A program made the position numbers and the translations under genes. The notes below the pieces were generated by a model. It did not search any database and was not told the origin of the DNA. It saw only the letters and a program-made list of their open reading frames with translations. DNA of 64,000 bases from Echinarachnius parma (lineage: Eukaryota > Echinodermata > Echinoidea > Clypeasteroida > Echinarachniidae). The DNA lies in contig JBAMJV010003375.1 of assembly GCA_037951105.1 (NCBI GenBank), forward strand, positions 1-64,000, in the 5' to 3' direction. This document shows, one piece after another, positions 19,572-62,974 of the stretch (positions are counted from its first letter, which is position 1; each line of letters begins with the position of its first letter).

Positions 19572-22500
19572 ATGGAACCCCAGAACCAGTACTTCTACAA
19601 CCGCCCTGAGAGGCCTACTCCCATGCAGCCTCAGCAGCCAGACCAGGCCTTTGCAGTCAACAGCATGGACCAATCCAAGATGGGGCCCATGATGCGTGCC
19701 CTGACAGAGGACTTTGACATGGGAGCACAGAACTCAACCCCAAGCTACCCACAGCAGCAGGGGGTCACCAGCATGCCAGGGGGAACAGACCAACAGAGGA
19801 TGCCAGGGGGAGCAGACCAACAGAGGATGCCCTCAAACAACTTTGGCCCTGCCTCTCAGACACTATCAGGGTATGCCAGTCAGTATTCATCAGCGCCTGG
19901 CTCGCACAACTTCTTTGGGCAAGGGCATCCCACCTCGCCGCTGAACAGCGGGTTCTCGTCTCCAGGAGGGAACTACCCTCCTCCTGGGGCAATAAACAAT
20001 CCCTACCCCAGACAGATGCCTGCTTCAAGTCCTCTCGGGAGTCCCAATGGACACGGACACTCCTACCCGAGGTCTAACAGTGCTGGACCTACAATACCTT
20101 CACCGGTCATGATGCATGGTCCAGGGATGTACTCCCACAATCAGACTTCACCGGGTAACAGAACAAATGCTCCTTTTGGCTTCCCACCAACATCTCCCAC
20201 ATCACCTCATAATCACCTCAACCACCCATCGCCCCCACTCGCTTCTCCAAGCAGCATGCGACCAGGGGGAAACCTCCACAGTCCAAAGAGCGTTCCTGCG
20301 AGTTCCCCAGTTCCCTTCGCATCGCAGATGTCTCCACCGGTTTCTCGCGCACAGAGCGTACCAACTCTTCCAGGAAATACTGTGGATCACATGCCACCTG
20401 CTCCACACTTGCGCTCAAAGTCTCCAGGTTCTGCTGGCATCCACCGTCCATTTCCACAACCGATGACTCAGCCGCAGCATCTCTATCCCCTGCCATCACC
20501 AAAGGTACGTCCTGTTGATCAAACAGATGGCAGAGGGCAGTATGTGGAACTTGTGCATTCTAAGCCCTCTGCAGAACAGTGGAATCAAAGTGAGCAACAG
20601 AGAAACAATCGGTCAAGGCATAACAGTGGACAAAGGAGGGTCTCAGACCCTGGGCATTTGCCACGTTTGGAGGAAATGGTTGCCGTGCTAGGGGATTCAA
20701 ATGTGAAGGAAACTTTAGATGAGATTGTTTCAGATAAGAACCTACTGTTCAGTGAAAATGGTGCACCAGAAAAGGGCAGCATGGACAATGTAAATCAGAA
20801 CACCCATTCCGATAATAATGAGAAAAGGACTCAGAAGAATGGTGGAAGAGATTCAGACAGTGCTGTGAAGTCTAGAGAAGGACTCTCAAATGGGTTTGGA
20901 GACAGGGATGACATAGTTAATGGGAAAGATGGTCCAGTAAATGGATTGACAAATGCAAAGAGTGACGATGAACTTCCTTCTGTGAGAAAAGTGAATAAAA
21001 CTTATCCAGGAAAAGCTACCAATTCAAACAGAGGTACTGAATCATCTAAGGATGCCATTCCAGACATGCCAAACAGTACAAATACTGGGAACAGAAACGG
21101 TGCGAAAGACACAGTCTTCAAGTCCCCGGTAAGAAGGCCATCAAAACCTCAAACACCTGTTCCGACCAAAGAGATAAAAGACAATGAACAAACAATGGAC
21201 CACCCTAGTGCTTCAGAAAGTAAGTGCCAAAGTGAGAGTACATTGACCAAACATTCCCTTGACAGTGAGCCTGCGATGAGTGTGCCTTCTACTTCCACCC
21301 CAAATCCATTGGACATAAAACCTGTACCCAGGGTGCAGACACCACCTTTTACTAACCCCATGACCACACCTACCATGAAGAAGAACAGTCCTGAAGACAG
21401 TGGGAGTAGCGACTTGAAGAAGAGGAGGGGTAGGCCTCCAGGAAGCAAGTCCAGAAAGGAAGGTGAGGAGGGAGGAAAACCAAAGAGAAAGTACTCCAAG
21501 AAGAAAAAGCTTGATATGGACAATGAATCGGAACAGAACACACCGAAGCCTGTGAAATCTTTAATGAAAGGCAAAGCAGAACCTGGTGCTTCGGTTGCAC
21601 GGGGCCCAGTGTTCAGAGTGCAGGGTAGCAGTATTGCAAGCATGATATCATGTCAGGTTGTTAATGCACCAGATGAAGTGTTGAAAGAAGAAGCACTAAT
21701 AAAAGGCGGGAAGAAGAAACCAAAGAAAGACGTGAAGCACGTCAAGAGACATGGCGGCATTGTCTCTGGACACATGGGACATGCCGCCATCCTAGGCATG
21801 GAGTGCGAGAGCCCAACAGGACTCTGGGTGTGTGCGCTCTGTGGCAACCCTCCAAACTTTGGCATCCTTGGAGACCTGTATGGACCCTACCGTCCACCCG
21901 GATCAGATGCTCCGAGCTCAAAGCGGGAGCGGATGTCCAAGAGTGATCATAAACACAGAGGTGGCCATTCCAGAGACTGGCATCACATGGGAAGGGACGA
22001 TCGACGGTCCTCGGGCAGCAGGGATGGGTATGTGAATGATTTACTGTTTGAAATGTGGTTTTCAAAGAAATAGTATGAACAATAAAAGATATCAAGCCAA
22101 TTTAATGAATGTGTATTGACATTGCTTAACATTTAAAGTAACACCAAACTAAACCCATGTCAATTTTAATTATCTAAAAAAGCATCATTTTGATCACCCA
22201 ATTTCAATTCATGAGCAAATAATAATTTAGCTTGTTCGTACTAAAAAGAAAACCTTTCTCTATTTTGAAGTAGCTTTTGGTGACAATGTATTAATCTTAC
22301 TTTCCTTGGTAAGCAGCAGAAGCCACTATTCAGATAGCTGAAGCCAAAAGGGAAAGCCACTGATGGCATGACAAACCAAACTGCCTAGGAGTTCTTCTCC
22401 TTCTTCTTCCGTTTAGTGACCACAATCAACTTACTGATTATTCTGTCACTTTAATTTGGTTGTGATGTGCAGGATGTGATGTACTAGCCAGCCCGGTTTA

Positions 22501-25500
22501 CATTCTACTCTTTTTGAGAAGTAGACTAGGTTCTTAACGTGCATGAGGTGTGACTGTCTCATACACGGGACCTCCATTTATTGTCCTAACCGAGGGACAG
22601 AGTTGTTTTCCGTGAATCCTTTTCCTGCTTAGGCGGGAAGCACGGGGGAAGGCGTAACACACAACGGGAGTTAGCTCAATCAAATTTATTGCCTGATAAA
22701 ATACTCATCCGATAGTTGGGTTTTCCCAAGTTACAGGCGGTATCAGGTGAAGACCTAAATGGATAATATCTGAGCATTTGGTGATCAATGACTTTTTTAT
22801 TAATCATGTCAACGACCAATTATTTACTCTTTAATTTGACCCCTTGTATACTGCAGGAGAAGCCACTCTTCAGATAGCAGAGGCCAAAAGGGAAAAGCGC
22901 TGATGGCACGACAAGCAGAGTCGACGAAGAGTCGCAGGTGGCGTCAGGTGAAGACCTACATGGATGAGATGGGGCTGTCCATGGGGCGGAGGACGGGGAA
23001 GAGGAAGCATAGTGAGGGAGGAGATGGGATGGGGGAGATCTGGATCCATGAGGAGTGTGCTGTGTGGTCACAGGGGGTCATCTTCTTTCAGGGGGCGCTG
23101 TATGGCATCCTCGAAGCCGTCACAGAGTCAGAAAGCAAGGTATGGTGAAACATTTGAAATTAGGCTTTAATTCCAGACAATTGCAACGAGTCGTATTGTA
23201 TTACAGTATTGGAAATGTATGACAACTAATGGGCTAAAACATCTCATATACATTTATAATCGTCTGTTTTAACCCCCTGGCCATGGGAACTGAGTGGGTT
23301 GTGTACAAAGTCTATGGGGAATTCATAAACTCGTAGTGAACGGGTTAAGGAAAAAAACAGTATGCTTTAAAAGAGTCATTATTATGAATAACTTAATATC
23401 TTTCATTAGTTCCAAATGTTATTGTATCATATGTTGTTATGTTAAGTTTTTAGTGCTCATTTTATAGAATACATTATCAGAATTTCCTATCTGGAATGCA
23501 AGAATTATCTGTAAGAAAATAATACATTTTGTTGGATTTTGTTCTCACAGAAATGCAGCTTGTGCCGCGAGACTGGTGCTTCGATTGGGTGTCTGAGCAA
23601 GGGCTGTAAATATGTCTACCACTATCTGTGTGCTATTGAAGCTGGTAAGGACTGATGATGTTGGTATAACATGCAATCTCCATAGACTCATGCCCAAGTA
23701 TTTTTGGGACCAGTTTTGAAGGGATTAAAACTGTTCCCTACTAGATGTTGCTATCTCCATAGAGTAAATACTCATGTGCCTCATAGTTGAATACAAATGT
23801 TGTATTATGGTATGACATCATTCCCTATAGATAGAACCTAGCCCAAGTATTTACAGGAGTGGTCCTGAATGGGTTATATGAATACAAATGTTTTACAGTA
23901 CCAACAACCTGCTTAAATATGTGACCGGCTATAGCAAAACTATAGCAAAAAGAAATGGGCATAAGTTCTCATAATGTGTGTAAAAGACTTAAATGATTGT
24001 AAAATTTAAACAATCATATCTTCGCCAATTATTGACCAAATCGTTAGAACAAAGCGTCAAATAAAAGCATGTAATGAGGCCTTTCTTATGGTATGATAAT
24101 CAACATTTTGATTTTTACCGACAAGTGCAGGGTTTTGCTATAGCTGGTCACATATATGCTTCAATTTCATAGGTATGCAGGACACAATTTAAATTCAGAA
24201 TCTGATTGGAAACTCTTTGCAGTATGCTGTTTAGACTTGTGAGGGACTGAATGAAATTGAAAGTAGTTATTTAATTATTACATTACTTTCATATCATTTG
24301 ATTCAAGAATTGTAGCCAACTTTGCTACTCATACGTACTGCTTTCAATTCAAGGCAATCTTTATGATTAGTTTAGTTTTGCATTTTTGTACAAAATCAAT
24401 TTTGATTAGTTTCACTTATATTCCTCAAGGGAACAGTAGTAGGTTGTTGTGTAAACAGATTTCCAGTTTTGTTTTGCTGGTTGTATTTCCTTTGAAATCT
24501 ACTGGTAACAATGTAAATTATTACTATGTGCATTTGCCATAGACTCCAACATGCGATGATGTGGCTATTTTCTGTTCAAGACTGATTTTGTTATAATGTA
24601 TTTTCCATTGACCACAGCCAGAGTAGTCTCTGGATCAGACCTCGAGGGGTATGTTGGTCTCGTCACTGCATCTTCTATTTTGAAAATAGGGATTAACAAT
24701 CAAGATATTATATATTATTAGATTATTTTTTAGTATGTATTCTGATTTGGATTATTTGTGTATTTTTATTTCCACAGAATGTCAAATGCATCAAGATAAC
24801 TACTCCATGACATGTCCAAAGCACAAGGTAATGTCAACAATGACTTTTGTACATGTGACCTAACACCACAAACGACCAATAAGTCGGGAAAACTGATTTT
24901 GCTGCTTTTCATAAAACATTAAAAAAGAAGTCATAACCTTTAAAATGGTATATAATTTGTCATAGTTGGACTAAGCAAACCCTTTCAAAATGAACGCCAA
25001 AGATTTGGAATATGGCTGAAGCATAAAATAAAGGAGAAACAGGCCGCTTAAAAATATCAGTGTCCATTCAAGCTCTGTAATAATACCACATTTCTTAGAT
25101 GAAAAATAATATTAAAACATGATTTCCGAGGCTCAAAATTTCACAGAAGGTAGATTAAGATGTGCTTATTCAGAAAATACCAAAATCCTAAATCTCATAT
25201 TTTGAAATTTGTTTGGCTATTTTAGCTAATAAAAGAGAAACTACCACAGCGACTTAACGGTCAATTTGTGGTGTAAGGTCACATATGGTATTATTTTAGG
25301 AAAATGTACACTTATGCTCAAATTCTCAATGATGGGTATAAATAAAGTGTGGGTTAAAGAAACTTCAGGAAAAATAAAAATCTTAAAAAACATATCAAAT
25401 TAATATACTGTATAATATTTAAATGTATTTGTATCTAAGGTGTGGGTAGCAGAAAAAATAAAGTTAATTTTGAATATGTGCCTTATGCAAAAAGCTCCTA

Positions 25501-25978
25501 ATATTTCAATTACTTTCCAGGGACATTTGTTTTGTACTGAACCCTTAGACTGATAAGATAATGTTCAGGGGCTATTTGTGACATTGGGGAAAACTTGACC
25601 TCCCTTAACCCTGGCTTGTATCTTCCTCGAACTGAAATAGATGTAGACCATGGTTTAAACCATGGTTTGTACAAACCTCCTTTGTAAACCCGGGCCAATA
25701 GGTTTGATTTATATAGTGCGTAATATGATACAATATCATATGTAAGCACTTCATAATAAATGTGTATCTTCTTTTTCCCAAAAAATTTCTTTTCAGGACA
25801 AAAGGTCAGGATAAGGGGCAAAGTCTATGAAAGGAAGAAAAATGTGCATTCTTCTTCTTAGCCCCATGTATAGGTTTTCACTGCTCCTTTCTGCTGTGAA
25901 TTACACTATTTATGTTTCTCTGTTTTCTTTCTCATATCTTTCCAGGACAAAAAGGTGAGGATAAGGGGAGGCCCCTGA
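19572..25978 (+). CDS. RAI1/TCF20-like chromatin protein with C-terminal extended PHD
   Basis: Five coding exons: 19572-22027, 22857-23139, 23551-23644, 24778-24827 and 25946-25978. All have GT-AG borders and matching phases, giving 971 residues. Residues 1 to about 600 are Pro/Ser/Gln/Asn-rich and disordered. An AT-hook (RRGRPPGSK) lies near residue 617 and a basic stretch follows. A RAI1-like block (about 679-700, SCQVVNAP) precedes the bipartite extended [23 protein letters not shown] with Cys754 and Cys757, then exon 2 HEECAVW, exon 3 [13 protein letters not shown] and YHYLCAIEA, exon 4 TCPKHK. This order matches vertebrate RAI1 and TCF20, nuclear nucleosome-binding regulators; those are nearly twice as long. 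The start is the first long-frame ATG after the acceptor. An internal repeat [18 protein letters not shown] occurs near residue 72. Orthology to the RAI1/TCF20 ancestor is inferred. Confidence 0.93.
22315..22770 (+). repeat. Decayed copy of exon 2, split by an insertion
   Basis: 22318-22386 aligns with the first ~70 bases of exon 2 (shared words AAGCCACT, TTCAGATAGC, GCCAAAAGGGAAA, CTGATGGCA). 22738-22770 continues the same exon (TCAGGTGAAGACCTA then ATGGAT). The two halves are separated by about 350 bp of unrelated sequence containing a GGTCCCGTGTATGAGACAGT-type motif on the minus strand, likely a SINE fragment. The copy lies in intron 1, upstream of the working exon. Confidence 0.7.
23269..23348. 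mobile_element. 80 bp TTAA-bounded palindromic MITE
   Basis: TTAACCCCCTGGCCATGGGA at the left and CGTAGTGAACGGGTTAA at the right, with GGGTTGTGTACAAAGTCTAT in the middle. It is almost the same as the copies at 41022-41103 and 62612-62691 (the latter inverted). It lies in intron 2. Confidence 0.7.
23918..24155. mobile_element. MITE, GTGACCGGCTATAGC family, copy 2
   Basis: Left TATGTGACCGGCTATAGCAA and right TTTTGCTATAGCTGGTCACA form terminal inverted repeats. The interior matches 11473-11724 in inverted orientation. It lies in intron 3 of the RAI1/TCF20-like gene. Confidence 0.75.
25640..25705. mobile_element. Solo arm of the GGCCCGGATTCACAAAGC element
   Basis: Shares ATAGATGTAGACCATGG, ACCATGGTTTGTACAAACCT and a CCCGGGCC end with the right arm of the paired element at 57276-57609. 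No matching left arm was found nearby. Confidence 0.5.
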
Positions 25979-26095
25979 TGCAAAGTCTTTGAAAGAAGAA
26001 AGCGTTGCATCGTTGGACAGGAGAGGATCAGGGGAGGCCCCTGATGCAAAGTCTTTGAAAAAAGAAAGCATTGCATCGTTGGAAAGGACGAGCAA
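25797..26095 (+). repeat. Copies of the terminal exon (alternative last exon and tandem 3' UTR repeat)
   Basis: A first copy starts at 25797 after a good acceptor (TTCTTTTCAG) and would end the protein DKRSG. The annotated last exon starts at 25946 after TATCTTTCCAG and ends it [10 protein letters not shown]. After the stop, a ~67 bp unit (GGGGAGGCCCCTGATGCAAA...AAAG, then GCATCGTTGG) is repeated twice up to about 26095. All three pieces share GGATAAGGGG- or GCAAAGTCT-type words, so this end of the gene was built by repeated local duplication. Confidence 0.75.
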
Positions 26096-28210: not shown

Positions 28211-28254
28211 AGGTGTGATCAGAAAGTCCCTATTGTAAAACTTGTAGTTACACA

Positions 28255-36345: not shown

Positions 36346-39300
36346 ATGGGTAAACGAGGAAAGTGTGTGGTGTGTGGAACAAAATTTGAATTAAAAAAGA
36401 AGGGATTCAAACGCTTTTCTTTGAAAGCACAACTGGGGCCAAACTATGAAGTAGACGTCCTAACAGCTTTGTCAAAAATTAGGCCTGATATTGCAGCCAG
36501 TAAATATCCAGATGATGGCCATGTATGTGACTCTTGCTTCCGCTTGCTCCGTTCGACACTCCGGCAGAGAGAACAGATTGTGAAAACGGAGATTGAATGG
36601 GAGAATAGGTTTGTGAATGGCCCGTATGGGAAGCAAATACAGAAGACAAAGAAAATACAACGATCCAAGAAGAGTGCAGCAGGATCCAGAGGAACGCGCA
36701 AAAGGAAACTGGGTGAAGTCCAGAACATTTTGAACGATAAAGACAGAAAGAGCAAACGGCTCAAGTTGGAACCTACCATCTCCATACTCTGCAAAAACGG
36801 AGGACATAAGAACTACATGAAACTTGTCATTGCATACCTGTTACAGTACAGATACCACAGGGCGTTCACCACACTGGTTGCCGGATCAAAGAGAGCCAAG
36901 GAGGCATTTCTGGGAGTCCTTGAGAACCAGGTGCGGAAGGAGGTGTTCTACTACTGCAAGTCTGCGGAGACCTGTTCGGAAGAGGCATCGGTCGAGTCTT
37001 TCTCCTGGAATCAGGAATGCAAGAAGATAGAATCCAAGATGCCAACATTCTACTCGGCCTGCTACGCTGCCATGGATACAAGGAAAGGGACAGATCTGGT
37101 TAATACTGCGAATGTGAAGTAATAAGTTAAAGAAATATGTCGTCTCCCTAAATTTTTGAATTGTTTGTGCTAAGAATTTTTTAAAATTTGTATTATTGAG
37201 CATATCAAATTTAATTGATACCACAATTGAATTGATAAAATGCTGAAACTTGAATTTTCAAAACAAAAATACATTCTCTCTCAGCCTTTACAATAAGTTG
37301 ACAGATAAATCTTAAAATCTTAAAAGTCCACATGTATTAAACAGTAATCATAATCTATAAACCTAGCCTTTGTAATGACAGCAATCGGTTTTTACTCAAG
37401 AACTGCATTGATGTTAAATAAGTCCTTACTTTTGCATAGCCACAAGATAAGCAGTTATACCATGCATATATTTATTCCTGCTAAATTAAAAAAAAATTGT
37501 GTGGCACATTTGTACTCTAACACTACAGGAAAGCACTGGTTCGTCCCAGACTAGGGCTGATGATGACGCTGCCACTCTACACCAGACGAGGAAGGAAGTT
37601 TGGATTCGTGCCTCACACTCTGTCTCTGCTGCTTCATCACTATGGAAACAGTGACAAGGTACATCATTCTATAAATTAGTTAAATACAGAAGATAATACA
37701 AATTTAAATAAAACAAAAAATAAAGAGCTATCACCGTTATAATACTACTCATATTGAATGTTGTCTAACTGAAGTGTTGGTTCAATATATTTCAAGTATT
37801 TTGTTAATCTGTGTTACTTTAAAAATAATATGTAACTAAAAAACAAAAATTACATGTGTGCCTCAAGATACACTGTACAGTGGAACCTTCTTTAAAAGGG
37901 GTCGGATTCAACAAAACCCTCTTATAGCAAGGTAATTTTGCTGGTCCCAGCTCTTTATATTTCTTTGTTTGTTTACCCTGATATAATGAGAAACAAAATA
38001 TATTTCATTTTCATGGTCCCAAGGACCTCATTATAATGAGGTTCCACTGTATTTGCTTTTAAGTATATATTTTATTTTATTTTGCAAGAACATCTCACTA
38101 AGTTCAGTGCAAATTATATCAAATGGTTTCCTGTATCTTGCAGGTAATGAAGATTCTTCATCACCTGGGAGTCTGCCGTCCAAGTACTCCAGCCCTGATG
38201 ACCAAAGTTGATGAGTTGAAGAAAGACGAGGCTGAGAGGCTCTTATTCTGGGCCACCAAGAACCTGGTAGGAATCTCAGTATTCTTGTTGTTGAAAATGA
38301 CCTTGCTAAGAGTTTTTACACTGTAATGCCACAGTAAAGTTGTGACCCGGAAGCAAAAACTGGATCGGAACTGGACCGGAATGGTTCGGAAAAAAATTCT
38401 CCGGTCTTCAGACCGGACCGGAACTCGGACCGGTAACATCATGCAATCGTGCAAGCATCGCCAAAAATGCAATGTTTGGGGCTTATATTGCTCTTTTTAT
38501 ATGACAATAATATTACAAATATTGACGCTTTGATGGATTTACATATCAATCTTGACAGGAAAATAGTTACAGACTATCCAGAATTAACTCAGTTTTGCAA
38601 GAAAAGTATTTTTTTCCGAAGTAAATTGGACCTAGACATCGATCGTTTGTTCAGTCGCGCCACACGTTCACAGAAACTCAGCCCGCCAGTCGCGGGGAAA
38701 CTCAAATGTAAATTTGCCTTCAGTAAACTGCCTTCATAAAGTGGCTATAAACATGATAAATTAGCATTTTTGTGATGTATGTACACCATTTTGGTAGTCT
38801 TCTTACATGATAACATGGCATTTTAAAGCTGAACAGAATAAAAAATGACCCCCAAAACAATGACAAAACTTCGCTGAATATCGCTAAGTTTCCAGAGAAC
38901 TTTTGGGAGGTAACTTGAAATGGGCCGGCTATAATCGAAGGTTGAAGTAAGCAGCAAGTTTTCATGCTAGTGCCTGTATTGGGCCGACTCGCGTATACAT
39001 ACTTTGCATGTCTTGACGGGTCTTCGTTCTTACGCGAGATCCATCCGCGACGGTCTTTGTTCTTACGCCGGATTCATCCGCGATACGATATGGTCGAAAT
39101 TTATCGATATTTTGCATAGTTTTTTTCATTGTTTTGGGGCTCATTTTTGTTTCTGTTCAGCTTTCAAACGCCTTGCAATCATGTAGGTAGAATATCAATA
39201 CATTTAAAAATGGTACAAATTACCAAAATACGTATTTTGAGCCACTTTTTGAATGCACTGGCTCATCAGCTCGATCATACAGATATCCATCAGATCAGAA

Positions 39301-40333
39301 GTTTCCCCGGGAGTGTCGGCCTAACTTTGTGTGCACATCCGTCGGCAATATCGTTCAAATGACTAGCAATTTTGCGCATCCTGTTCAATTTCTGACTGTC
39401 AAACGAAGTAACGAACCAAGAATTTCTCGAAAATAACCACTCTTCAAAGTAAATGATATCGATTGCCCTGTTTTTATTTTAATTCTGCTAATTTTCGAAC
39501 CGATTTTGGACAATTTTCTTAATGTTTTTTCAGTCATTTGTAGCACCGGTTTTTCCACCGGTCTCAGCTTTTTCAACTTCAAACTCGGACCGGCCCGTGA
39601 CCGGACCGGAAGCCCGAGTTCGCCGGTATTCCGGTTCCGGTCCGGTCCAGGTCACAACGTTATGCCACAGCAACTCACCCTTGAATATAGGATATAGGAC
39701 ATTTGAGCAATTACTCATCTATTTGTTTTGTGAATGTCTACAGTATAAGTTGCCTTTGGTTCAAAATGTTAGTCATCTATAATGTATGTCGATCATAATA
39801 ATGTTCTTTATTATTCAAAGATAAGAATGAAAGTACCACTGTTTATGACATTTTAGTCGTATAAAATAGTTATTGCTTTGTCAATTGGTATACACAAATT
39901 ATAACTAGAGTGCTTGACATGTTTATATTAATTTCAGGGTGAAAACCTGCAACAAAGCACCATGATGAGTAGACCTACCACCAAGATGCCTTCCCGCAAG
40001 GGCAAGCTACCAAAAGCATCTCTTCCTCCTGCTGATGGTAACGCCTCGGATGAGAGTGATGATGACCAGTCGAGCGATGACGAGAATGCACCGGTCGACA
40101 ACGATGACGACGAGGGAGAGGAATCTGATGACAGCAGTCTCATGAATCTGCTTTCTTCAGATGAAGAAGATGAGGAAGAGACTGATGACGATGAGGATGA
40201 TGATGAGGAGGCGGAATGGATGGAGGTAGGGGAGGATGAGATGGTGGTGGAGGGGTGCGTGGAGGACATTGCGGGACAAGAAGTGGAGCTGGTACTGATG
40301 GAATCCTACAAAGCCTTGAAAGGGGGCACTTGA
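36346..40333 (+). CDS. Unnamed zinc-finger protein with acidic tail
   Basis: Four exons with matching phases: 36346-37118 (donor GTAATA), 37529-37658, 38144-38266 and 39938-40333, giving 473 residues. The N-terminus has a ZAD-like four-cysteine arrangement (Cys7, Cys10, Cys61, Cys64). A basic linker (about 95-145) follows, then a helical region with NGGHKNYMKLVIAYLLQYRY and, across exons 2-3, RPRLGLMMTLPLY, GFVPHTLSLLLHHYG and KVMKILHHLGVC. That part resembles, from memory, the N-terminal half of large transposon-related invertebrate proteins. The last exon is a long Asp/Glu/Ser-rich tail (about 365-440). No catalytic domain is seen. It could be a host protein derived from a transposon, or an ordinary nuclear adaptor. 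It starts 225 bases after the PIG-Y stop on the same strand. An acceptor-like TATATTGTAG precedes the ATG, so a leader exon may exist. Confidence 0.75.
37876..38051. mobile_element. TA-bounded MITE with CAGTGGAACCT ends
   Basis: TACAGTGGAACCTTC at the left and GAGGTTCCACTGTA at the right, with paired inner words (CTTATAGCAAGG, CTCATTATAATGAGG). Typical of Tc1/mariner-derived MITEs. It lies in intron 2 of the zinc-finger gene. Confidence 0.8.
38335..39662. mobile_element. Non-autonomous hAT-like element with 8 bp target duplication
   Basis: An 8 bp direct repeat TGCCACAG lies at 38327-38334 and 39663-39670. Terminal repeats are TAAAGTTGTGACC and, inverted, TAACGTTGTGACC, fitting the hAT start pattern YARNG. 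Both ends are rich in GGACCGGAAC words. Left and right interiors are partly inverted copies of each other (the CCCCAAAACAATG word and its complement). No transposase frame. A related copy enters at 63324 and runs off the window. It sits in intron 3 of the zinc-finger gene. Confidence 0.8.
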
Positions 40334-40361: not shown

Positions 40362-41165
40362 GAGACAGGATAGAGGGAAGAAGCAGAAGAAATTGAAGGG
40401 TGCGTAGATGACATCTAAGAATAAGAGGTACAGATCGTGCTAAAATCTGTGGAGCCATTGTAGAGGTGAACTAGAAAGGTGTGATTGGTAGAGGAGGAGG
40501 GGGAGGAGGAATAGTGATATATTCCAGGAAAGAAGAGGTGGAAATTGAAGGGTGCGTAAAAGAAATTGAGAATGGTGCTAAAAGATGCCTACAAAACTCT
40601 AAAAGAGGGAACTTTGTTTTGTACCCAGGATGGAATGACTTCAAGATGATGTATGACAGGAAGATGTTGAAAAGGAACGAGGAAGAGGTATAAAGAGAGA
40701 TGAAAGTGGAAGTATTATCACTATTATGTGCCATAATACGTCTGTATGTCACTTTGGACCTGTGGGCCGAGTTTGAGGTGGAGGAGGTGTAAGTGTGTAT
40801 ACATACCTTGGTATAAGCAAGAGGGCAATAAGTGTGAAAATAAACCTCACTGACCTCCCAATTAAAGGACATTTAACAGAACACTTTAAATTGATTTGAG
40901 TAAAGTTACTGCTCCCTTCATGGAGATATGTTCCCCTCTCTGCTCCCCTGTCCGGGTACCTTGCTACACCCCGTGTGTCCTAAGAAGGGACGGAGAGATG
41001 GAGGTAGGAACAGATCAAGTATGTAAACCCCTTGACTACGGGAACCAGGTGGGTTGTGTATAAAGTCTATGAGGATTTCAGAAACTTGAAGGGAGCAGGT
41101 TAACAGGTAAGATGTGGAGATGATCCTGATCAGATTGATGCCTGCAAGGCCATGTTTAAATGGAG
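40362..41165 (+). repeat. Decayed copies of the last exon of the zinc-finger gene
   Basis: Three downstream copies of the final ~110 bases of the coding exon and start of its 3' UTR. Copy 2, about 40362-40490, shares GAAGGGTGCGTAGATGACAT. Copy 3, about 40495-40630, shares GAAGGGTGCGT and GATGCCTACAAAACT. Copy 4, about 41104-41165, shares GATGCCTGCAAGGCC. They are in the same orientation as the exon and increasingly diverged. An AATAAA at 40839-40844 lies between copies 3 and 4, so the first copies are probably transcribed as 3' UTR. Confidence 0.65.
41022..41103. mobile_element. 80 bp palindromic MITE (TTAACC family)
   Basis: Right end GGGAGCAGGTTAA and middle GGGTTGTGTATAAAGTCTAT match 23269-23348. 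The left end is degenerate (TAAACCCCTTGACTACGGG). It sits just before the fourth copy of the zinc-finger last exon. Confidence 0.65.
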
Positions 41166-46043: not shown

Positions 46044-49000
46044 TCATGATGCTGGCACTAATTCTGGTTCCTTCTTTTCTTGTCTCCTTTCACGCTCCCT
46101 CTGCTTCTCTGTGTCATCTGTAAAAAGAAAACAAAAATGAACTAAACCCCTCAAAAAAAGTTTGGAAACTCAACTTTGATCGATTGTATAACTTTTATTG
46201 TCAAATTGTATTTGTTCCTTTTAGTGTCATTGCAATGCATGATGATTTCCCTTTAAAATGGTACATTATTTGTCATTCATTTCAAATCAGGGAATACGCA
46301 GTGCGTTTCAGAATGGAGGCCGGTCAGAAGTCAAATGTCGCAAAACGGGCCGAAAGTATTCAGTTGGGAAATTTGACTCTTGTGCCGTATTTTTTAATGT
46401 TCAGGTTGTATCGAAGATTGTAGCGTGTTCAAATGATTTAAACTTATCAAATTTGGTATCATTTTAAAGCCTATGTGTCTATCTTTTCAATACGGTTATG
46501 TCCGTAACAATTTTATTTACAGGTTAAGTATGGTACAGCTGAATATGGGGAGGGCCGAAAGGGAAATGTTGCAAAATGCATTTCTTTTTGTGAAATTGAA
46601 GGCGTTGCATCGAAAAACGACTATTGGAGGGATGTTTTAGGGTTGTAAATTGCATTATCATCAGTAAATTTAGTATCATGTGAAAGCGTGTTTATTTTTC
46701 TTTAAAATCATGTCTCACCTGTAATAATTATGCTATTGGGGTGTGTGCAGTAAAACCGGATATGGGGGTCTATAAATGGTATGAATTTAAGACCATGGCT
46801 TCTTGTTTCAAGATTCCGGTAAGATACTGTTGTATTAAGCATAACTCTATCATCATCGGAAAGCTCGTTAATTTACCTTTAATATGATGTCTCATTTGCA
46901 ATGATTATGCTGAATGTGAGTGTGTAATACAGGAAACTCACAAACTTGATGTATTGAAAATGCTTCAAATTTCTCTAAACCTACGCAAACTGGCATATTA
47001 GCGCCCTCTTCGACCGTGTAGGTATGCCCTTATTACCTCGTATCAAACGGTAGAAAGTCGACCTAACAACGTGTCATTTTGAGCCCCATACATTTAGAGG
47101 TACTACACACACCTCAAGCACATAACCACTATGAATGGGGCATTATTTCATTGACAAATTAACACGCTTTAACATAATGTTAAATTTCATAATGATTATG
47201 TAAAGTAAAGTACTAAGATATCCCCACAAAATCGTTTTAGGATGCAACGCCTTCAATTTCACACAATCAAATGCATTTTGCTTACATTTTGCTGTCGATC
47301 CTCCACAATATTCACCTTAATTGTACCTACCCGGCTTTCATAATTATTCCAAGTGAGGTGTCATTGGAAAGATAATTAAACAGGCTTTTGTCTGATACCA
47401 TATTCAACAGCATCTCTTCATTGACAAGATATTCATCGTCGAAAGAATTTGAACTTGAGAAAGACCGTGATATGGTTGTCAGACCTTCCAACTGAAGTTT
47501 GTTGGCGCATTTTGCGACATTTCACTTCTGACTTTCCCCCATTCTCAAGTATACTGCACATACCTCGTGCTCGTGATGCTTACGAATTTGGTATCATTTT
47601 AAAGAGGTATACACACCCTTTCAAGTGATACCAAATATAACCATTATGATTTCTTAATAAAATAGATATAATCGATCAAACTTGAGTTTCCAAACTTTTT
47701 TTGAGGGGTTTAGATGGATCTTCGACTGCGCGCAGTCGAAAATGATGCCTCCGCCATTACGCAATTTATTTATATCAAGCCCAAATCAACATGTACACAG
47801 AATTAATTCTGTCAACTCAATTTTGATGGTACTCTGTCTTTTAGATCTTGACGTATCACAATTATGAGCTATAAGTGACCTTGACCTTTGCCCTCATGAC
47901 CCCAAAATCTAATGACTACAATTGTTCCCTATTATACATTCAGGTATCAAGTTGGATTGAAATCTGATATTCAGTTCTTGAGATTCCCAATCTCAAGCTA
48001 CTTTTACATATAATGAGCCCTGTGACCTTTGACCTCATGACCCCCAAAATCTAATCAGTTCATTGGCCCCCCAAGATACATACATGTACCAAGTTTGGTC
48101 AGAATCTGTCACTCCCTTCTTGAGATAACGCGATCACGAGCTATTTTTGCATATATAATGAGCTCTGTGACCTTTGACCTTTGACCTCATGACCCCAAAA
48201 TCTAATCAGATCATCGGCCCCCCAAGATACATACATGTACCAAGTTTGGTCAGAATCTGTCAATCCCTTCTTGAGATAACGCGATCACGAGCTATTTTTG
48301 CATATATAATGAGCTCTGTGACCTTTGACCTCATGACCCCAAAATCTAATCAGATCATTGGCCCCCCAAGATACATACATGTACCAAGTTTGGTCAGAAT
48401 CAGTCAATCCGTTCTTGAGATAACGCGATCACGAGCTATTTTTGCATATATAATGAGCTCTGTGACCTTTGACCTCATGACCCCAAAATCTAATCAGATC
48501 ATTGGCCCCCCAAGATACATACATGACCTAAGTTTGGTGAAAATCCGTCAATCGGTTCTTGAGATAACGCGATCACGAGAACGGGACGTACGTACGTACG
48601 TACGGACGGACGGACAACCCGAAAACATAATGCCTCCGGCTACTTCGTTGCGGAGGCATAAAAAGGTGTTCAGATTGAATGCATCTTTATTATAATCGTA
48701 ACTCTGTTAAGTGCTTTATACACAACTATATTATGCACTATATAGGAATTGCATTATAATGAAAGATACATTTGAGTAATGATTCTTTCTGAAAAAAGTT
48801 TGTGAGTACATTTCACTTGGTTTAAATCCCTGTGAAAGTACAAATACTGAGAATATTTCCCCTCCAAGTGCTCTTACATTATGGTTTCATTAAAGATAGA
48901 TTGTTGGGCATAGGAAAAGATACTCACAAACTGAGAGGTTGATATAGGGCTGATTATGTGCACCATCACTTCTATTATAATTGACTACCTCTTTAATTAT

Positions 49001-52000
49001 GTAATCAAGAGCGATATATGATGGCACTCACCAACTTGTGGTAGTTCATCATCAGGAACAGCCGGGAGGTTGATCTCTGCTTCTCCTGTGATCTGAGCCA
49101 GCTCGGCCAGCACCGCATCCTCATCCTCCTCCGTCAGACCTCCGGATAGCATCTCATCAATCTCCTATAGAGGGATGCACAAGTCAGATATATGTAATTA
49201 CATATTCATCATTTACTACTAATTAATTAAGGAATGAAAATGAATAAACACCCATCCCAATTTCAGCCAGCACTGCATCCTCATCCTCCTCTGTCAGGCC
49301 TCCGGATAGCATCTCATCAATCTCCTACAGATGGATAAATATTACATATTCGTTGAAATTCACCAAAGTTACAGAACTTTAGTTCCTGAATCAACATTTA
49401 AAAGTACAAGTAAAAAATGGGGGCTAGATAATAACAATCCTTCCCAATCTAAGATTACACTGCATCCTCATATTCCTCTGTCAGACCTCCGGATAGCATC
49501 TCATCAATCTCCTACCAAGGGATAAACAAGTCAGTTATATGTCATTACACGTTCATTGAAATTTACCATACATACATAAAGAAATACCTACATACCTAAT
49601 CACTGTTTACAACTAAAAAGGGGGGTTAAATAATAAAGTCAAAGAATAAACACTCATCCCAATCTGAGCCAGCACTGCATACTCATCAATCTCCTACAGA
49701 GGGAGACACAAGTCAGACATTTCATGACTTAAAATTTACTGTACGTGCATAAAGCTACATCTACAAACCTAATCACTGTTTACAACTAAAAAGGGGGGTT
49801 AAATAATAAATTCAAGAATAAACACCCATCCCGATCTGAGCTTACACCGCATCCTCAAACTCTTCAGACAGTCCTCCAGGACAGCATCGCATCAATCTCC
49901 TTCAGATGGAACTTCCACAAAATATTGTATGAACATACTCATTACCACCTAATTAAATTCTTACAAAGGAATTATCAGGGAGGTCAAGTGTGATCATTCA
50001 TCTGAGGAAGGCTCTAGATGTTGGCCGACAAAATTTGGAGGCAGTTTGTGGCAATATTTTTAAATAATGGTACTTTGTATGCAATATCATGAATTTTCAT
50101 GCCAACAGTTTGACATGTTCATTGCTAGGAAACATGTCCTTCTACGTAGAAAAAAAAATGATATGACAATGACCAAATAGATGACAGGAAATAAATAATC
50201 ACTTACCATGATGCCCCTTCCCCCCCCCCCCCCCCAAAAAAAAAAGAAGAAACGATCCCCTTTCTTCTTATCCAACAAGAACATTCTTTCATAAATACAA
50301 ACTTGGAAGGAAAGTTTTCTACTCACATTTTGATATTCTATTCCTTCCCTCGTGTCATCCATAATCTTCTCAACATCCTCTAGTGAAAGCATCTGCAGAA
50401 TAAAATACAAGGAAATGAGGAAATAAGTAAATAGTCAGCTTAAAATCAAAGTATATATTCTCAGGGTAGACGCAACATGTCTGTAAATAATGTACATCCA
50501 AACAAAATATGAAAAGTGGTCATCATCTTCATTGCTTTCGCCGTCAACATCATCATCATCATCATCATCACCATCATCATCTTCATCTATGTCGTCGTCG
50601 TCCTCATCATCATCACCATCATCCTTGTCATCGTCGTCATCATCATCATCATAATCATCATCATCCACCATCTCCACCATCATCATCATCATCTTCATCC
50701 TCGTCATAGTTGTCATCATCATCATCATTACCTGGTGCATTTTCTTGAGGCATTCGTTGCCAACCTTCAGTCCATCAATGACCTGGTGCTCAATCTGGGC
50801 AAACTCCAGCTCCGAGGTAATTCGTTCTAGGTTATCTAGTTGATTATCTGTCTTCTGAATTAATGACTCTTGGTAGCGCTTCTTCTTTAAGAGCAGTTTA
50901 GCTCTCCTGTGAAATTTGTAAATAAAAGAAATCAGTAATGTAGATAGACATAACTTGTGTGAAGACATTTTTATTCAATTTAGCATACCAATAACTTTCT
51001 GGACCACCATCAATTAAAATTCATTTTTTGTCCTGGAGAGAATCATGCACGTTGGAATAGTTTGACTAGATAGATGGCGCAATAGAAGTGCTGGACAAGT
51101 AAGTAAGTTATGCAAAAATACTGCTGAAAACTGCTTATCTACTATAATAATGCCTGAGTAATAAAATGAGAGTCAAAATAGGACTAAATTTTCAATCCTA
51201 ATAACAAATTTAGGCCCTATTTTGACTCTCAAGTAAGTAAATTAGTAGATTGTGAAGATAAAGGGGATGGCAGGTGCCGCCACCCCCCCCCCCCTCCCCT
51301 AACCCCATCATTGGGAAAAGGGGGAAAAGGAAAGACAAACGATGATCCATGAATGAAACTACTTGCAAATATAAGTCCTTGCTATATGCCTCTGTTGAGA
51401 AGGTAGAGATCCTATCATAAATAAGCTTTTCGTGTGTTGTACCCCATTCAAACTTAATGCTCTCAAAATAATGTTGTATGGCATATACAATAATTGCTCC
51501 ATTCACAAGATGTTTCCTACAGATAACATAACAAAAACCTTTTTAAAAATGTATCAAATGAACATATTAAAACTAAAGAATATGTCTACTATCTTAGAAT
51601 TAAAAAAAATAAAGGTTATTAAACAGCATACAAAACTAAATTTACTGCATTATAAATTCAGGACATAATATGTTTCACTTACTCCTTTCTGCCATCCTTT
51701 AGTAACTGCTTTGCTAACTCCCTCTCCTTTTTCAGATTGGCTTCAATTTTCTTCTGGTACTGCTTCATTTTGTCACGTTGTTGTTTTAGTTGCTGTAAAG
51801 ATAAATAAAAAATAAAAAATAGATATTGAACTGATATCTTGATATCATCAATTCAAATGTAAGCATGTCTACAGTAAGACTTTGCCTTGACTGTCGTTCA
51901 TCTTAAATTAGGAATATTGTGATTTGAGAATAGGGCAACAATCGTTCCAACATGTAATGACCAAAACAGACAAATTTTTGAAAAAAATACTCCACATTAA

Positions 52001-55119: not shown

Positions 55120-55145
55120 ACCCCCCTGGGGGGGGGGGGGGGGTT
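55120..55145. repeat. Poly-G tract
   Basis: G run at about 55127-55143, close to the CpG-rich zone upstream of CHMP6. Confidence 0.85.
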
Positions 55146-57609: not shown

Positions 57610-57670
57610 CTAAGTTTGTTGTTGTTGATACTGCTGACATTGTTGATGATGTTGCTGTTGCTGTTTTTGT

Positions 57671-58030
57671 CGTTGTTGAATGTCTCCAAAAGTGTTTCTT
57701 GGCGACATCAGATAGTAATTGGGACAGTGGTCGCCATTTGTTATTCAACCCTTTTTTTTAGCTGCCATCAAGGAAGTATTGAGCTTTTCTTATCCTTTCA
57801 TAAACATGGGTCACATAAAGAATCCTTGAAATTTTTCTTGCAAGACCGCTAAGAAAAAACTCTTGCAGTAAAAAAGACAAAGAAATCTCCAGGATACTGC
57901 TGATATTGTTGATGATGTTGTTGCTGCTGCTGTTGTATTGTTGTGGTTGTGGAATGTCTCTAAGAGCATTGCTGAAGAAAGCTAGCTGGCCCTTAGGGCA
58001 ATAGTTGGAAATTGTAATTCTACACATTCT
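57671..58030 (-). repeat. Two decayed downstream copies of the CPSF4 last exon
   Basis: On the minus strand, about 58020-57890 repeats TTGCCCTAAGGGCCAGCTAG, CAGCAATGCTCT and a CAG/CAA-rich tail. About 57780-57630 repeats GGCGACCACTGTCCCAATTA and a CAA-rich tail. Both align in order with the working exon (58323-58183) and lie beyond its stop. The shared GGCAGCTRAAAA word marks the upstream edge of each unit. Confidence 0.7.
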
Positions 58031-58182
58031 TTTCAGCTGCCAACAAGGAATTTTCATAAATGTGGGTCATGAATTACTAAATAGTCCTAGGAACATGTCT
58101 TGCATGACAGCTCAAAATACAACTCTTGCTGACAAAATAAAGAAATCTCTGAGGTGGGTAGAAAACCCTTGGTCTCCAAGTG

Positions 58183-61100
58183 TCACTGATGTTGCTGTTG
58201 ATACTGCTGATGATGCTGCTGCTGTTGTTGTTGTTGTGGTTGTTGGCTGCCATCGAGAGCGTTGCTGAGGAACGCTAGATGGCCCTTAGGACAGTGGTTG
58301 GCAAAATGCCCCTTCTCTCCGCACTGTAGGAAAACATTGAAAAATAACAGGAACTTAATCAACAATAATTAAAATTTCTCTGAATAAATAGCTGAACCTA
58401 TTGTTGTTTTCACTCAAGAGCATTGCTGGGAAATACTAGATGGCCATTGGGACAATGGATGGCAAAATGGACCCATTTCTACACACTGCAGGGAATTGGG
58501 AAACAAAATATATTAAATGAAAAGGAATATCAAAGGAATGGATACAAATTCAGATGATAATTGATAGAAAACAAGAAAAAAGACATTAGAATCGTCTTTG
58601 GCAGCATTAAACAAAACAATATGTGTGTAATTTTTGTTTTCAGCAAAAGAGTAAGATATATAACAAATCTGCATGACCAGATAATTTGAAGCTTTCATAA
58701 CTTGACCTTACTTTCAATTAAAACAAAAACAACAGCAGCAGAGAGCACATCAAAAATTCCTTCTAATAATGAAAAACATTTTCACACTCCTCATCATATC
58801 TGGAACTTTGAAGGAATTTGGTTCTAATCTTATGCCATGTTTGTGTATACAGTCAAACCTGTCTTAGTGGCCACTTGTTTATAGCAGCCAACCTACCCAT
58901 ATTGGCCACATGATCCCCTGCAGAGAAAAACAATGGAATGAACCTGTCTATAAAGGTCACCTGTCTACAGTGGCCGCTCTTACTTCCTTTCGGTGGTCAC
59001 TATACAGAGGTTTGACTGTATTTGAAGAAAGAGCAGCATAGCTTACCTTGTAACAAGTAATGTGGTCATAGTTCCTTGGACCTCTATTGTACCCAGACTT
59101 GTTCTGGTAAGATGATGTGGCTGATGATGATGATGTATCTGTGCTGCCCTGCTGTGCGTTTGTGTCTGCATTCCCCAGTACGCGGATACCGCCTTGATTC
59201 TGTTGAAAGAAAACAAATAAAAAAAAAAAAAAAAAAAACACATTTTCTACAGTGAATAACTGGCTTATTATGCATAATGTCATTGTAGTTTTTGTGTAAT
59301 AGCTCTGCAGTGTTTCTAGACTTGTACTGATAGAAAGATGATGATGACACTGTGCTGCCTTCTTGTGCGTTTGTGTTTGCATTCCCCAGTACGCGGATAA
59401 CACCTTGATTTGATTGAAAAACAATGAAAACAAATACAAAACTGAATTATAACATTTTCTATAGTGAATGACTGACGTAAAAAGCAGTTGTAGTTGCTGT
59501 GCAGTAGTTATCTAGTGTTTCTAGACTTGTGCTGATATAATGATGATGATGACACTGTGCTGCCTTGTGCATTTGTCTGCATTCCCTAGTACTCGGATAC
59601 CACCTCGATTCTGTTGAAAAAGACGGTCAAAACAATTCAATGAAAATCTGCAATGAAAACATTTTTGTGAATGGAAGGCTTAAAAAGCCTAAGAAAACTA
59701 AGAAATTGGAAAAGAAGCTTAGAGTCACAGAAAGAGCAATGGAGAGGATTATGGTAAGGGTTACAAGAAGAGACAATGAGGACAATGAGGACTTAAGAAA
59801 GAAAACAAATGCCAGGGATATCATACAGGAAATAAAAACAAAGAAATGGAGATAGGCAGGCCACTTTGCAAGACGTAAAGATAACAGATGGACACATAAT
59901 ATAACTAATAGGACACCAAGAACACAAACCAGACGAAGAGGCAGACAGAGTAGACGTTGGATGGATGACATCAAAGAATTTGGGGGTGTTACATGGATGC
60001 GACAAGAACAAGAAAGAAGAAGATGGAATGGTGATGAAGAGGCCTCCTTCTGCAGTGGAGAGACATAGGCTAGATAGAACATTACAATAACTAAAATGAA
60101 GTACATAATATCTTTCAAAACGGAAGTATAGATTTTCCTGAAAAATATGCACTCTATAATGAGAAATGTAGAATTTAGTCGAGCCTACAAGGAAGACAAA
60201 TGTTGAAACACACTTGACTTTTTATCATACTGAAGTTTAATAGTAGAAGATAGCAATCTTACTCTGTCTAAAGATTGTTTCTGACTGAAGGGTGTTGGCC
60301 TGGTTGTTGGTGGTGCTGGAGTCTGATAGGACCCATACTGGTTGTTTGGGCAGTGAATCGCCTTGTGACCCGGCTCCCCGCAATTGTGACATGTCAGCTT
60401 TTTGATCGAGATATCCTTTGTCTCACCAGGCATCGGGAGGTCAAAGGTCGGACTGATAATGTGTAAAATTAGGAAAGATCAAATTAATACATTTGAAAAT
60501 GCGATAGCTTTACTTTTGCGCTCATCAGAGTATTACCCTAGAATGAACAGAAAACCACATTATTTATATAGTACCAAATATTAAATTAATTTGATAAACA
60601 TCATTTTTGAATTGAGAAACTCAACAACCATAAGTAATGCAAACAATTTAAAAACCATAAGAACAACACAATGAATACCCTATAAACAACAAGCATTTTG
60701 TGCATCTTTTCTCTTGTTGCTATTGTTTACTCAATGTCAGGAGATTAGCACCTTTGCTTGGGATGATGGACAAATTTCAGAAAATTGGTCCATCCTATCT
60801 GATATTTAGCACAAACATGTACCATCCCTTTTATCAATACAAGACGTTTCAAAAGCAAGATCAACTAATCTGCAGCCTTTTAATGTCACCATGAACAGAT
60901 GTACAGTTTACACCTATGATCTTATCAAAATAGTCTACTTTTCTTCATTTTTTTTGCTAATTTACTAATATTTCTAAGCAAACAGTGGCATGGGTGCAAT
61001 AAACAGCTCCTTTTTTTTTAGTTTGAAAAGAGATGTAATTTTGCCAGGTCTTCACAAAGTTTATACTGAAATGATCTAGTCATAACAACAATGATACTTA

Positions 61101-62974
61101 CTGCACAAATTTACAGCTGGATCCTTCTGGACAGAAGCCTATTAAATAGTTGGGGCAGTACACTCTCCGCACATGACGGTTCTTACAGTTTGGACCTGGA
61201 ATAACAAAAATGATAAGATACATTTCAATGCTTACCACTAGTATGTTGCATAACTACAATCTTAACAGTGACATTGATATGATTTGCAACACAAGTAAAT
61301 AATATCAATTGATAAAATCATAATTGGACATTTTGGTTAATTTTTATAAAGATTTTGTGCAACATTACATTTGAAATATCCATACTGCTAACTACATGTA
61401 TATCTTGGTGTGACATTACAATAATGTGAAAACTTTTGTTTGATATTTTTAAAGCCTGATTGCAATGCAATATCAAATCAATCACAATTAATTAATAACT
61501 TTGACATTATTTCCAAGTCATCGGTCATATTTGAGGGTCCTTCCTAGCAAGTATTGTTATAATACAAGGACTGCCAACATCAATATAATTCAGGGAGATT
61601 TCAAACAGCAATCAGGGAGAACTACATAATTGTTTGTCGGGATGTGGAAAGATAGATCTGTAAATTGTTCAGGCAGACTCCTGTGGAATCAGGGAGATTT
61701 GGTAGGACCTGTCTGTAATATTCAACCCTGTCTTGCAGTCAGGGTCAGTGAACAAATACATGTGGGGCTCGGGGCAAAATCGCCCCTGAAAATCATAAAA
61801 GAGCCCCTGAAAATTTGCATCTCGAGTTCAATGCAAATCAAATGTTGGAGTGTCATTTTCATGCAGGCAAGCTTGAAAAAGAGCCCCCGAAAAAATAAAT
61901 TTGATCTTTCCCCCCCCCCCCCCCCCCCCTGGTCAGGATCAGTGTAAGGGTTTGGCGAATCTATTCAGCATGAACATATTCTATATATCTATCTAGCCTA
62001 TGTCTCTCCACTGCAGAAGGTACATATTACCGATCCTCAATCTTCCCATTTGATCCCTCCATCTTACCATGTTTGCAGAAGCCTCTGTCGTACCAGGGAC
62101 AGTCTTTCTTCTTGCTGTCAGGGTCAATGTGAAGGAAGGGGCAATCTTTGTTGCTACACATACCTGGTAGTGAGTGAACAAAACATTTGGTAACAAGAAG
62201 GAGAAATGCTTTTATCCTTTATATCTTACACATTAAAAGAACATGTCATTTATTATAATTAAAAACTATTTTATTCCCTTTTCAGATCCTTGTTTACCCT
62301 GTACTTTGCATACTTTATTATATTTTGCAGGGGAAAAAATATGTGTTCACTTACAAACTATAAATAAATATGTCATCTACACTAGCTTAATCTACACCAT
62401 AATTTGGATGTATGCTGGTTTCTGCTTCAATAGCCCTCATTCAGTAATAGAAACATTATTTAATTAAATCAATTAATTTATTCAAATGTAGAACTTTCTA
62501 ACCTTCAAGTTTAAAAACAGACTTGCATTAATTGCAGATTAGATTGGAGGGTTTGTGAAGAGTATTGAACAGTTAATAATTGGAGATGCATCTATCTAGG
62601 TTGATATCCATTTAACCCGTTCACTACAAGATTCTGAAATCTCCATAGACTTTGTACACAACCCACCCGGTTCCCGTAGTCAACGGGTTAAGTATGCCTT
62701 AATCTTTGCAAAATAAAATACAACTTCAATATCATTGAAACTTGTTTCAGTTGGAATGTTATATTCTCACCAAATTTGGCAAAGAAGAAGCACTCGGGCA
62801 TTTTGCTCATGTCAAACTGGTGGAGGAATTCACACTCATCTCCCTTCTTGCAGAGCCCTCTGAGCCAATGCTTGCACACCACGGCCTTGTCTCCCTTGAC
62901 ATGTCTGAATGGACACAGCGCAGCCTTCACACAGGAATGATGTTTGTAGAACTGGCAGACACCTGAATTGGACT
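58183..62974 (-). CDS. CPSF4: CPSF4 (CPSF30), pre-mRNA 3'-end processing factor, 5' end outside window
   Basis: Six minus-strand exons: 62974-62771, 62163-62068, 61195-61102, 60452-60263, 59199-59047 and 58323-58183. Phases agree, giving 291 visible residues. Five CCCH fingers are complete: [76 protein letters not shown] and [19 protein letters not shown]. Two CCHC zinc knuckles follow ([14 protein letters not shown] and [14 protein letters not shown]), then KGHLAFLS and a Gln/His-rich tail. Human CPSF4 has one knuckle and no Gln tail. The family binds the AAUAAA signal within CPSF through the second and third fingers. About 35 N-terminal residues lie in an exon not found here; the DNA from 63324 to the window end is transposon. 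Identification is certain. Confidence 0.97.
58418..58492 (-). repeat. Decayed upstream copy of the CPSF4 last exon
   Basis: Aligns with 58323-58250: acceptor CCCTGCAG, then TGTGTAGAAATGGGTCCATT against TGCGGAGAGAAGGGGCATTT, then CCATCTAG and CAGCAATGCTCT. The acceptor looks usable. The frame no longer encodes the zinc knuckle. Confidence 0.7.
58848..59020. mobile_element. MITE, AACCTGTCTATAGTGGCCAC family, full copy
   Basis: TACAGTCAAACCTGTCTTAG at the left and AGAGGTTTGACTGTA at the right, TA-bounded, 173 bp. Internal TGTCTATAAAGGTCACCTG and TGTCTACAGTGGCCGC show it was made of repeated units. It lies in the last CPSF4 intron. Confidence 0.85.
59210..59232. repeat. Poly-A run near the CPSF4 exon acceptor
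   Basis: A run of about 20 A (T on the transcribed strand), just upstream of the acceptor of the penultimate CPSF4 exon. It may serve as its polypyrimidine tract. Confidence 0.75.
59330..59615 (-). repeat. Two decayed copies of the penultimate CPSF4 exon
   Basis: Copy B, about 59405-59330: its frame begins [20 protein letters not shown] and closely matches the working exon [20 protein letters not shown], but the acceptor AG is lost. Copy C, about 59614-59525: acceptor TTTCAACAG is intact and the DNA matches (GTATCCGAGTACTAGGGAAT), but the frame is disturbed after GNAD. Spacing is about 205-210 bp. Both lie upstream of the working exon in gene sense. Confidence 0.8.
59640..60072 (+). mobile_element. 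LINE 3' fragment (RTE/jockey-type reverse transcriptase tail)
   Basis: The plus strand encodes the C-terminal tail of a non-LTR reverse transcriptase: [23 protein letters not shown], then [31 protein letters not shown] and [13 protein letters not shown] replaces the usual Trp codon after KKWR (59852-59854), and the 5' part of the element is missing. It ends at CTGCAGTGGAGAGACATAGG. It sits in a CPSF4 intron, antisense to the gene. Confidence 0.75.
60073..60262. other. CPSF4 intron, nothing further seen
   Basis: Short AT-rich intronic sequence between the LINE fragment and the exon 60452-60263. Confidence 0.4.
61630..61930. repeat. Repeat fragments and poly-C in a CPSF4 intron
   Basis: About 61790-61905 contains TCATGCAGGCAAGCTT and GAGCCCCCGAAAAA-type words, shared with about 13748-13870. 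It is followed by a C run at 61911-61929. Intronic, non-coding. Confidence 0.5.
61988..62022 (-). mobile_element. Very short LINE 3' end
   Basis: The minus strand reads CTGCAGTGGAGAGACATAGG followed by CTAGATAGATA, the same 3' end as the LINE fragment at 59640-60072. It is an extremely 5'-truncated copy about 45 bases downstream of the CPSF4 exon 62163-62068. Confidence 0.6.
62612..62691. mobile_element. 80 bp TTAA-bounded palindromic MITE
   Basis: TTAACCCGTTCACTACAAGA at the left and CCGTAGTCAACGGGTTAA at the right, with ATAGACTTTGTACACAACCC inside. Inverted relative to 23269-23348. It lies about 80 bases downstream of the first visible CPSF4 exon, within the intron. Confidence 0.75.

Follow-up and report, generated by a model that had tools for sequence, protein, structure and literature searches.

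Decayed copies of exon edges in four Echinarachnius parma genes probably reflect ordinary tandem duplication that stays recognisable longer at exons

Introduction

Two described processes come closest to the arrays reported here: tandem exon duplication (for which the available part of PMC9741552 cites Kondrashov and Koonin 2001 and Letunic et al. 2002) and internal gene duplication, with intron gain by tandem duplication (Gao and Lynch 2009, as cited in the available part of PMC4974935). The arrays belong to these known processes, and a literature search on decayed exon copies as such found nothing. They lie in a window of 64,000 nucleotides from the echinoid Echinarachnius parma (contig JBAMJV010003375.1), in which several genes carry head-to-tail relics of their own exons. 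Our analysis points to ordinary short head-to-tail duplication throughout the window as the probable source, with the surplus at exons arising mostly from the longer time over which copies remain recognisable there.

Results

Gene content of the window

Four genes with introns are present in the window, which is animal DNA, and 21 coding exons were placed in them by reading frame and splice sites. A few ends in this exon list are off by 1-3 bases; as no donor was placed for it, exon 1 of the fourth gene was extended to its stop codon, and the last exon of CHMP6 (from 46117) was chosen by eye among six candidates.

19572 to 25978, plus strand: RAI1/TCF20-like gene, with a PHD-like zf-HC5HC2H Pfam match over the joined exons
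36346-40333, plus strand: fourth gene, not assigned to a family, with a large first exon
52617 to about 46045, minus strand: CHMP6, with a Snf7 Pfam match (E 2.5e-41) over the joined exons
62962-58183, minus strand: CPSF4, matching solved CPSF4 chains (E 2.3e-88)

A Vps20 fragment is also present among the solved-structure matches of CHMP6, and the 5′ part of CPSF4 perhaps lies outside the window. The names CHMP6, CPSF4 and RAI1/TCF20-like are assignments in line with the Snf7/Vps20, CPSF4 and ePHD matches. The fourth gene had been called a zinc-finger gene, a name that finds no support in exons 1-3 (342 aa), which have no Pfam match at E ≤ 0.01. A search of Rfam at gathering thresholds found nothing. 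Within CHMP6, a long degenerate TCA/TGA repeat (50544-50728) starts a few bases from the exon 3 donor; within CPSF4, a 33-bp perfect inverted match joins two introns (60046-60078 / 61988-62020).

Six exon-linked arrays in four genes

Self-BLAST and a Smith-Waterman scan against shuffled sequence reveal six exon-linked arrays across the four genes, with copies that are local, decayed and on the same strand as the exon that they resemble. Same-orientation exon copies in all four genes, as originally predicted, are thus well above chance, and the predicted spacing of about 100-210 bp is corrected to an observed range of 66 to 540 bp. The arrays hold few copies (2-5), mostly old and diverged, and most of the detached copies (hereafter orphans) carry disabling changes, namely stops, frameshifts, deletions or a lost acceptor. 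All six consist of direct-orientation homologous exon copies inside the same gene, as in tandem exon duplication, and matches cross exon starts into introns, as in internal (tandem) gene duplication; the CHMP6 and ePHD copies end inside the exon, before the donor, and are therefore not complete exons with both splice sites. No copy examined by self-BLAST or the Smith-Waterman scan matched two consecutive exons.

In CHMP6, the array lies upstream of exon 5:

49032-49164, minus strand: functional exon 5, placed by frame and AG/GT
49259-49324, minus strand: orphan c1, 59/66 identities with exon 5, in frame, acceptor retained
49446-49511, minus strand: orphan c2, acceptor kept, in-frame stop
49654-49693, minus strand: orphan c3, acceptor kept, internal deletion
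49832-49898, minus strand: orphan c4, frameshift

These four orphans start at 49324, 49511, 49693 and 49898, with spacings of 160, 187, 182 and 205 bp, and self-BLAST aligns 49103-49685 with 49263-49857 (E 1.4e-68). The copied unit comprises some intron, the acceptor and about 66 of the 133 bases of exon 5, excluding the donor. Over 66 sites, c1 differs from exon 5 at seven (1, 0 and 6 at the three codon positions), and six of the seven differences are synonymous; this excess is suggestive of constraint, and some of the changes may belong to the functional copy. No strong donor was seen in c1 by eye. The comparison of c2 with exon 5 gives 7 synonymous and 5 nonsynonymous differences, plus stops.

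CPSF4 contains two arrays, one at a linker exon and one at the last exon:

59047-59199, minus strand: functional linker exon, whose C-terminal part aligns to solved CPSF4 chains
59311-59410, minus strand: linker orphan c1, acceptor AG lost
59516-59610, minus strand: linker orphan c2, acceptor kept, gaps breaking the frame
58183-58323, minus strand: functional last exon, with the second zinc knuckle and the stop
58404-58485, minus strand: upstream orphan of the last exon, frameshift
57617-58011, minus strand: two downstream copies of the last exon, 66-84% identical in matched pieces

The two linker orphans lie upstream of the exon, starting at about 59410 and 59610, and 59126-59485 aligns with 59337-59688 (self-BLAST, E 1.3e-62). 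Linker c1 differs from the functional exon by 4 synonymous and 6 nonsynonymous changes. Similarity is weak past about 112 of the 153 bases, which leaves unsettled whether the original unit included the donor. The downstream copies of the last exon start at about 58011 and 57750.

Two further arrays belong to the RAI1/TCF20-like gene:

22857-23139, plus strand: functional ePHD exon, placed by frame and splice sites
22284-22374, plus strand: first piece of the ePHD orphan, covering the exon start and about 33 bp of the intron before it
22734-22764, plus strand: second piece of the ePHD orphan, 359 bp apart from the first
25946-25978, plus strand: functional last coding exon
25797-25840, plus strand: orphan 149 bp upstream of the last exon, stop-codon bases deleted
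25951-26088, plus strand: 66-bp tandem repeat that begins in the last exon and extends into the 3′ UTR

The 359 bp that separate the two ePHD pieces (22375-22733) have no similarity to the exon and may be a later insertion into the orphan; self-BLAST found no further copy of this segment inside the window. The copied unit comprises some intron, the acceptor and about 118 of the 283 exon bases, excluding the donor, and the orphan differs from the functional exon by 2 synonymous and 5 nonsynonymous changes and contains stops. A further array, 23627-24638, touches exon 3 of the same gene weakly (74%); it is counted among the seven arrays of the rotation test below and not among the six.

The sixth array lies at the end of the fourth gene:

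39939-40333, plus strand: last exon, placed by frame and splice sites
40374-40422 and 40526-40614, plus strand: two decayed downstream copies of the exon end, after the stop

Other repeats in the window

Two arrays with units of about 144-151 bp, at 7853-8582 and 47861-48579, are inverted relatives of each other and fall within an inverted 1-kb match at 72% identity (self-BLAST, 7726-8686 / 48664-47711). The 7853 and 47882 arrays belong to one repeat family and seem to be repeats internal to a single dispersed element, as opposed to independent minisatellites. The minisatellites at 27915 and 28455, which had been cited as intronic, are located beyond the stop codon of the RAI1-like gene, and the one at 53483 is situated 5′ of the start codon of CHMP6; intronic status is not shown for any of them. 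A sequence of roughly 80 bp occurs in three copies that are 79-87% identical (self-BLAST; 23269-23348, 41026-41103 and 62612-62691), all non-coding and within or near three of the genes, and is probably a small dispersed repeat.

Exons are not enriched overall, and small exons are in nominal surplus

The original prediction had raised copying coupled to transcription, splicing or repair as one possible cause of the exon copies, and a comparison of exons with introns as the way to judge it. Within the window, a direct local copy at p < 1e-3 (Smith-Waterman against shuffles) was found for 5/49 exon pieces and 75/463 non-coding pieces. Excess masked sequence excluded 20 of 532 pieces, 19 of them non-coding; the one excluded exon piece is the last exon of CPSF4, itself duplicated, so that 5/49, and 5/23 for small exons, miss a known positive. 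Restoring it gives 6/50 against 75/463 (Fisher p = 0.54) and, at p < 1e-5, 6/50 against 49/463 (p = 0.81). Local inverted copies were found for 0/49 exon pieces and 47/463 non-coding pieces.

Rotating the exon map leads to a similar picture. Seven of 24 arrays touch an exon against 4.86 expected (p = 0.18), and 6/18 against 3.51 at p < 1e-5 (p = 0.09), with three pairs spaced more than 1200 bp apart omitted from the array count; counted by exon, 7/21 are touched against 4.65 expected (p = 0.14), and 6/21 against 3.26 at p < 1e-5 (p = 0.05). The two large exons yielded no copies in 26 pieces. For the 19 small exons alone, 7 are touched against 3.51 expected (p = 0.03), and 6 against 2.41 with the p < 1e-5 arrays (p = 0.014). 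The proposed comparison of exons with introns, confined to this window, therefore comes out divided: small exons are in nominal surplus, and over all exons there is none. The small-exon surplus is 2.0-2.5 fold in the raw counts and nominal, the subset having been picked after looking at the data.

Counted by piece, with the restored piece included, small exons give 6/24 against 75/463 at p < 1e-3 (p = 0.26) and 6/24 against 49/463 at p < 1e-5 (p = 0.04). Against a background thinned of exon-linked arrays, the figures are 6/24 against 53/441 (p = 0.10) and 6/24 against 30/444 (p = 0.007), respectively; the thinning intervals were set by hand and favour the case for exon preference, which is why all non-coding pieces were compared as well. 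The six matched exons lie nearer to gene 3′ ends than random picks (p = 0.009 overall, 0.012 within genes), in a test whose trend was named beforehand and whose details are post hoc; it covers six exons in four genes, one of which, CPSF4, is perhaps truncated by the window. The predicted concentration near the 3′ ends of the genes therefore holds nominally, at p of about 0.01 and for six exons only, and we regard it as a hint.

Detectability accounts for much of the exon surplus

In a simulation whose functional copy is assumed to evolve at 15% of the neutral rate, a constrained-neutral pair can be detected for 1.57-1.58 times longer than a pair of neutral copies. With a gain of 1.58, about 5.5 and 3.8 touched small exons would be expected, where 7 and 6 were seen. 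After this correction, the piece counts for small exons give p = 0.30 (p < 1e-3) and p = 0.037 (p < 1e-5), and the per-exon counts p = 0.14 and 0.012. We consider the small-exon surplus, itself nominal, to be explained largely, and perhaps not wholly, by detectability.

As a masked control, the functional exons were hidden and arrays found from unconstrained sequence alone, with 1114/1278 tiles scored; in the array list, 7853-8258 was merged with 8282-8545, and 22 arrays became 21 and 33 became 32. Arrays lying within one period of an exon then number 6/21 against 5.66 expected, 9/32 against 10.0 at a looser threshold and 6/26 against 7.4 with periods up to 400 bp; for small exons only, the same three settings give 6/21 against 4.29 (p = 0.22), 8/32 against 7.85 and 6/26 against 5.65. 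These counts score nearness rather than membership of the exon in the unit and are diluted for that reason (one of the six, 23655-23876, matches weakly), and with 21-32 arrays they carry little power and are compatible with a two-fold preference. Without the one-period extension, 4/33 array spans touch an exon against 7.6 expected, and 2/22 against 4.4, counts that are biased low because a masked exon cannot join the span.

The functional-orphan pairs themselves are consistent with one-sided decay. With the copied exon part picked by eye, 8/9 pairs show higher identity there than in the adjoining intron. Exon and intron identities are, respectively, 0.85/0.77 and 0.84/0.70 for the CPSF4 linker, 0.78/0.62 for the CPSF4 last exon, 0.86/0.65 for the ePHD exon, 0.95/0.65 for the last RAI1-like exon and 0.89/0.70 for CHMP6 c1; CHMP6 c2 (0.82/0.79) and c3 (0.80/0.79) are marginal, and c4 is reversed (exon 0.78, intron 0.80). 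Whole-exon alignments that include the tails agree in 4/6 pairs, the reversed ones being CHMP6 c2 (0.66/0.75) and c3 (0.54/0.67). Exon identity from orphan to orphan (CHMP6 and CPSF4 linker), at 0.77-0.91, is not clearly below the 0.78-0.89 from orphan to functional exon, which shared orphan history may explain.

Discussion

Of the causes originally listed, better detectability at exons fits best, given the simulated gain of 1.58 and the lack of preference once exons are masked. The reading that we consider probable can be set out as follows. Short head-to-tail duplications would build up in coding and non-coding DNA alike, presumably by replication slippage or unequal exchange, and some duplicated units would overlap an exon edge by chance. 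Where a unit carries the acceptor and the exon start without the donor, the downstream copy would remain functional and the upstream one become an intronic orphan, because the remainder of the exon adjoins the downstream copy alone. Where a unit takes in the tail of a terminal exon, additional copies would land after the stop codon; the fourth gene, CPSF4 and the RAI1-like gene all have copies of the terminal exon in that position. Such layouts should alter mRNA or protein little and could persist, whereas an additional exon copied whole would be spliced in and probably purged by selection. With one copy fixed by selection, a pair would diverge more slowly than two neutral copies and stay visible for longer. 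Exon-linked arrays would thus look special because selection holds one copy constant. The 3′ bias is not required by this explanation.

Preferential copying of short exons with their acceptors, through a mechanism coupled to transcription, splicing or repair, would account directly for small exons being touched at 2.0-2.5 times expectation, for the 6/21 exons touched against 3.26 (p = 0.05) and for the 3′ bias (p of about 0.01). Yet over all exons the per-piece excess is absent (5/49, or 6/50, against 75/463), the association disappears with exons masked (6/21 against 5.66), small exons included, and detectability accounts for part of the surplus. Matches, moreover, continue beyond the exon start into the intron and, in CHMP6 and the ePHD exon, stop inside the exon, so the breakpoints ignore exon boundaries. 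A special exon-copying process is therefore unsupported, and we judge it unlikely. Local retrocopies, made from spliced RNA and inserted nearby, would fit the ePHD exon and the last RAI1-like exon, where similarity is strong in the exon part only; but intron is included with the exon part in the CPSF4 linker and CHMP6 units, no copy examined matches two successive exons, and the copies sit head to tail beside their source. Retrocopying is thus almost certainly not the origin of these arrays. Assemblies are known to be error-prone at tandem repeats, and copies could in principle be errors from merged haplotypes. However, divergence between functional copies and orphans amounts to 5-22% for exon sequence and 20-38% for intron sequence, far more than is usual between haplotypes, and disabling changes differ between copies, which makes assembly error extremely improbable.

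Some copies might instead be working alternative exons, with CHMP6 c1, in which 6/7 differences are synonymous, the acceptor is kept and the frame is open, as the best candidate; tandem duplicated exons used as alternatives are known, according to the available part of PMC9741552. Against this, CHMP6 c2 (7/5, with stops), CPSF4 linker c1 (4/6) and the ePHD orphan (2/5) look unconstrained, and c1 itself has no strong donor by eye; we hold such use to be very unlikely. A related and decidedly speculative idea, to which we give little weight, is that short tandem duplications overlapping small exons build up toward gene 3′ ends in this genome, and that the orphan exon starts left behind, with an acceptor and no donor, could form a reservoir for new alternative exons in which CHMP6 c1 would already be under coding constraint.

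If ordinary duplication with unequal visibility is indeed the explanation, the pattern would be an observer effect, in which selection preserves the traces of old duplications at exons for some time after those in other DNA have faded. Tallies of decayed exon copies would then exaggerate any preference for exons unless unconstrained sequence alone is scored on both sides. Conversely, a small-exon surplus that held genome-wide under the masking control would represent a real mutational or selective pattern.

Comparison with known systems

Like the minisatellites of the window, with units of 66, 82, 97 and 126 bp, the exon-linked arrays consist of head-to-tail units of similar size; unlike them, they have only 2-5 copies, most of them old and diverged. 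They share with tandem exon duplication, as presented in the available part of PMC9741552, direct-orientation exon copies adjoining an exon in one gene. The exons in that part of the article are retained as alternatives, whereas the copies here are mostly partial or broken. The potato RdRp case, in the available part of PMC4974935, involves a unit with upstream intron and a 3′ splice site that resembles the units described here. The potato case involved the activation of a cryptic donor and the birth of a new intron; in the arrays of this window, by contrast, a donor is not evident by eye and the copies look unused.
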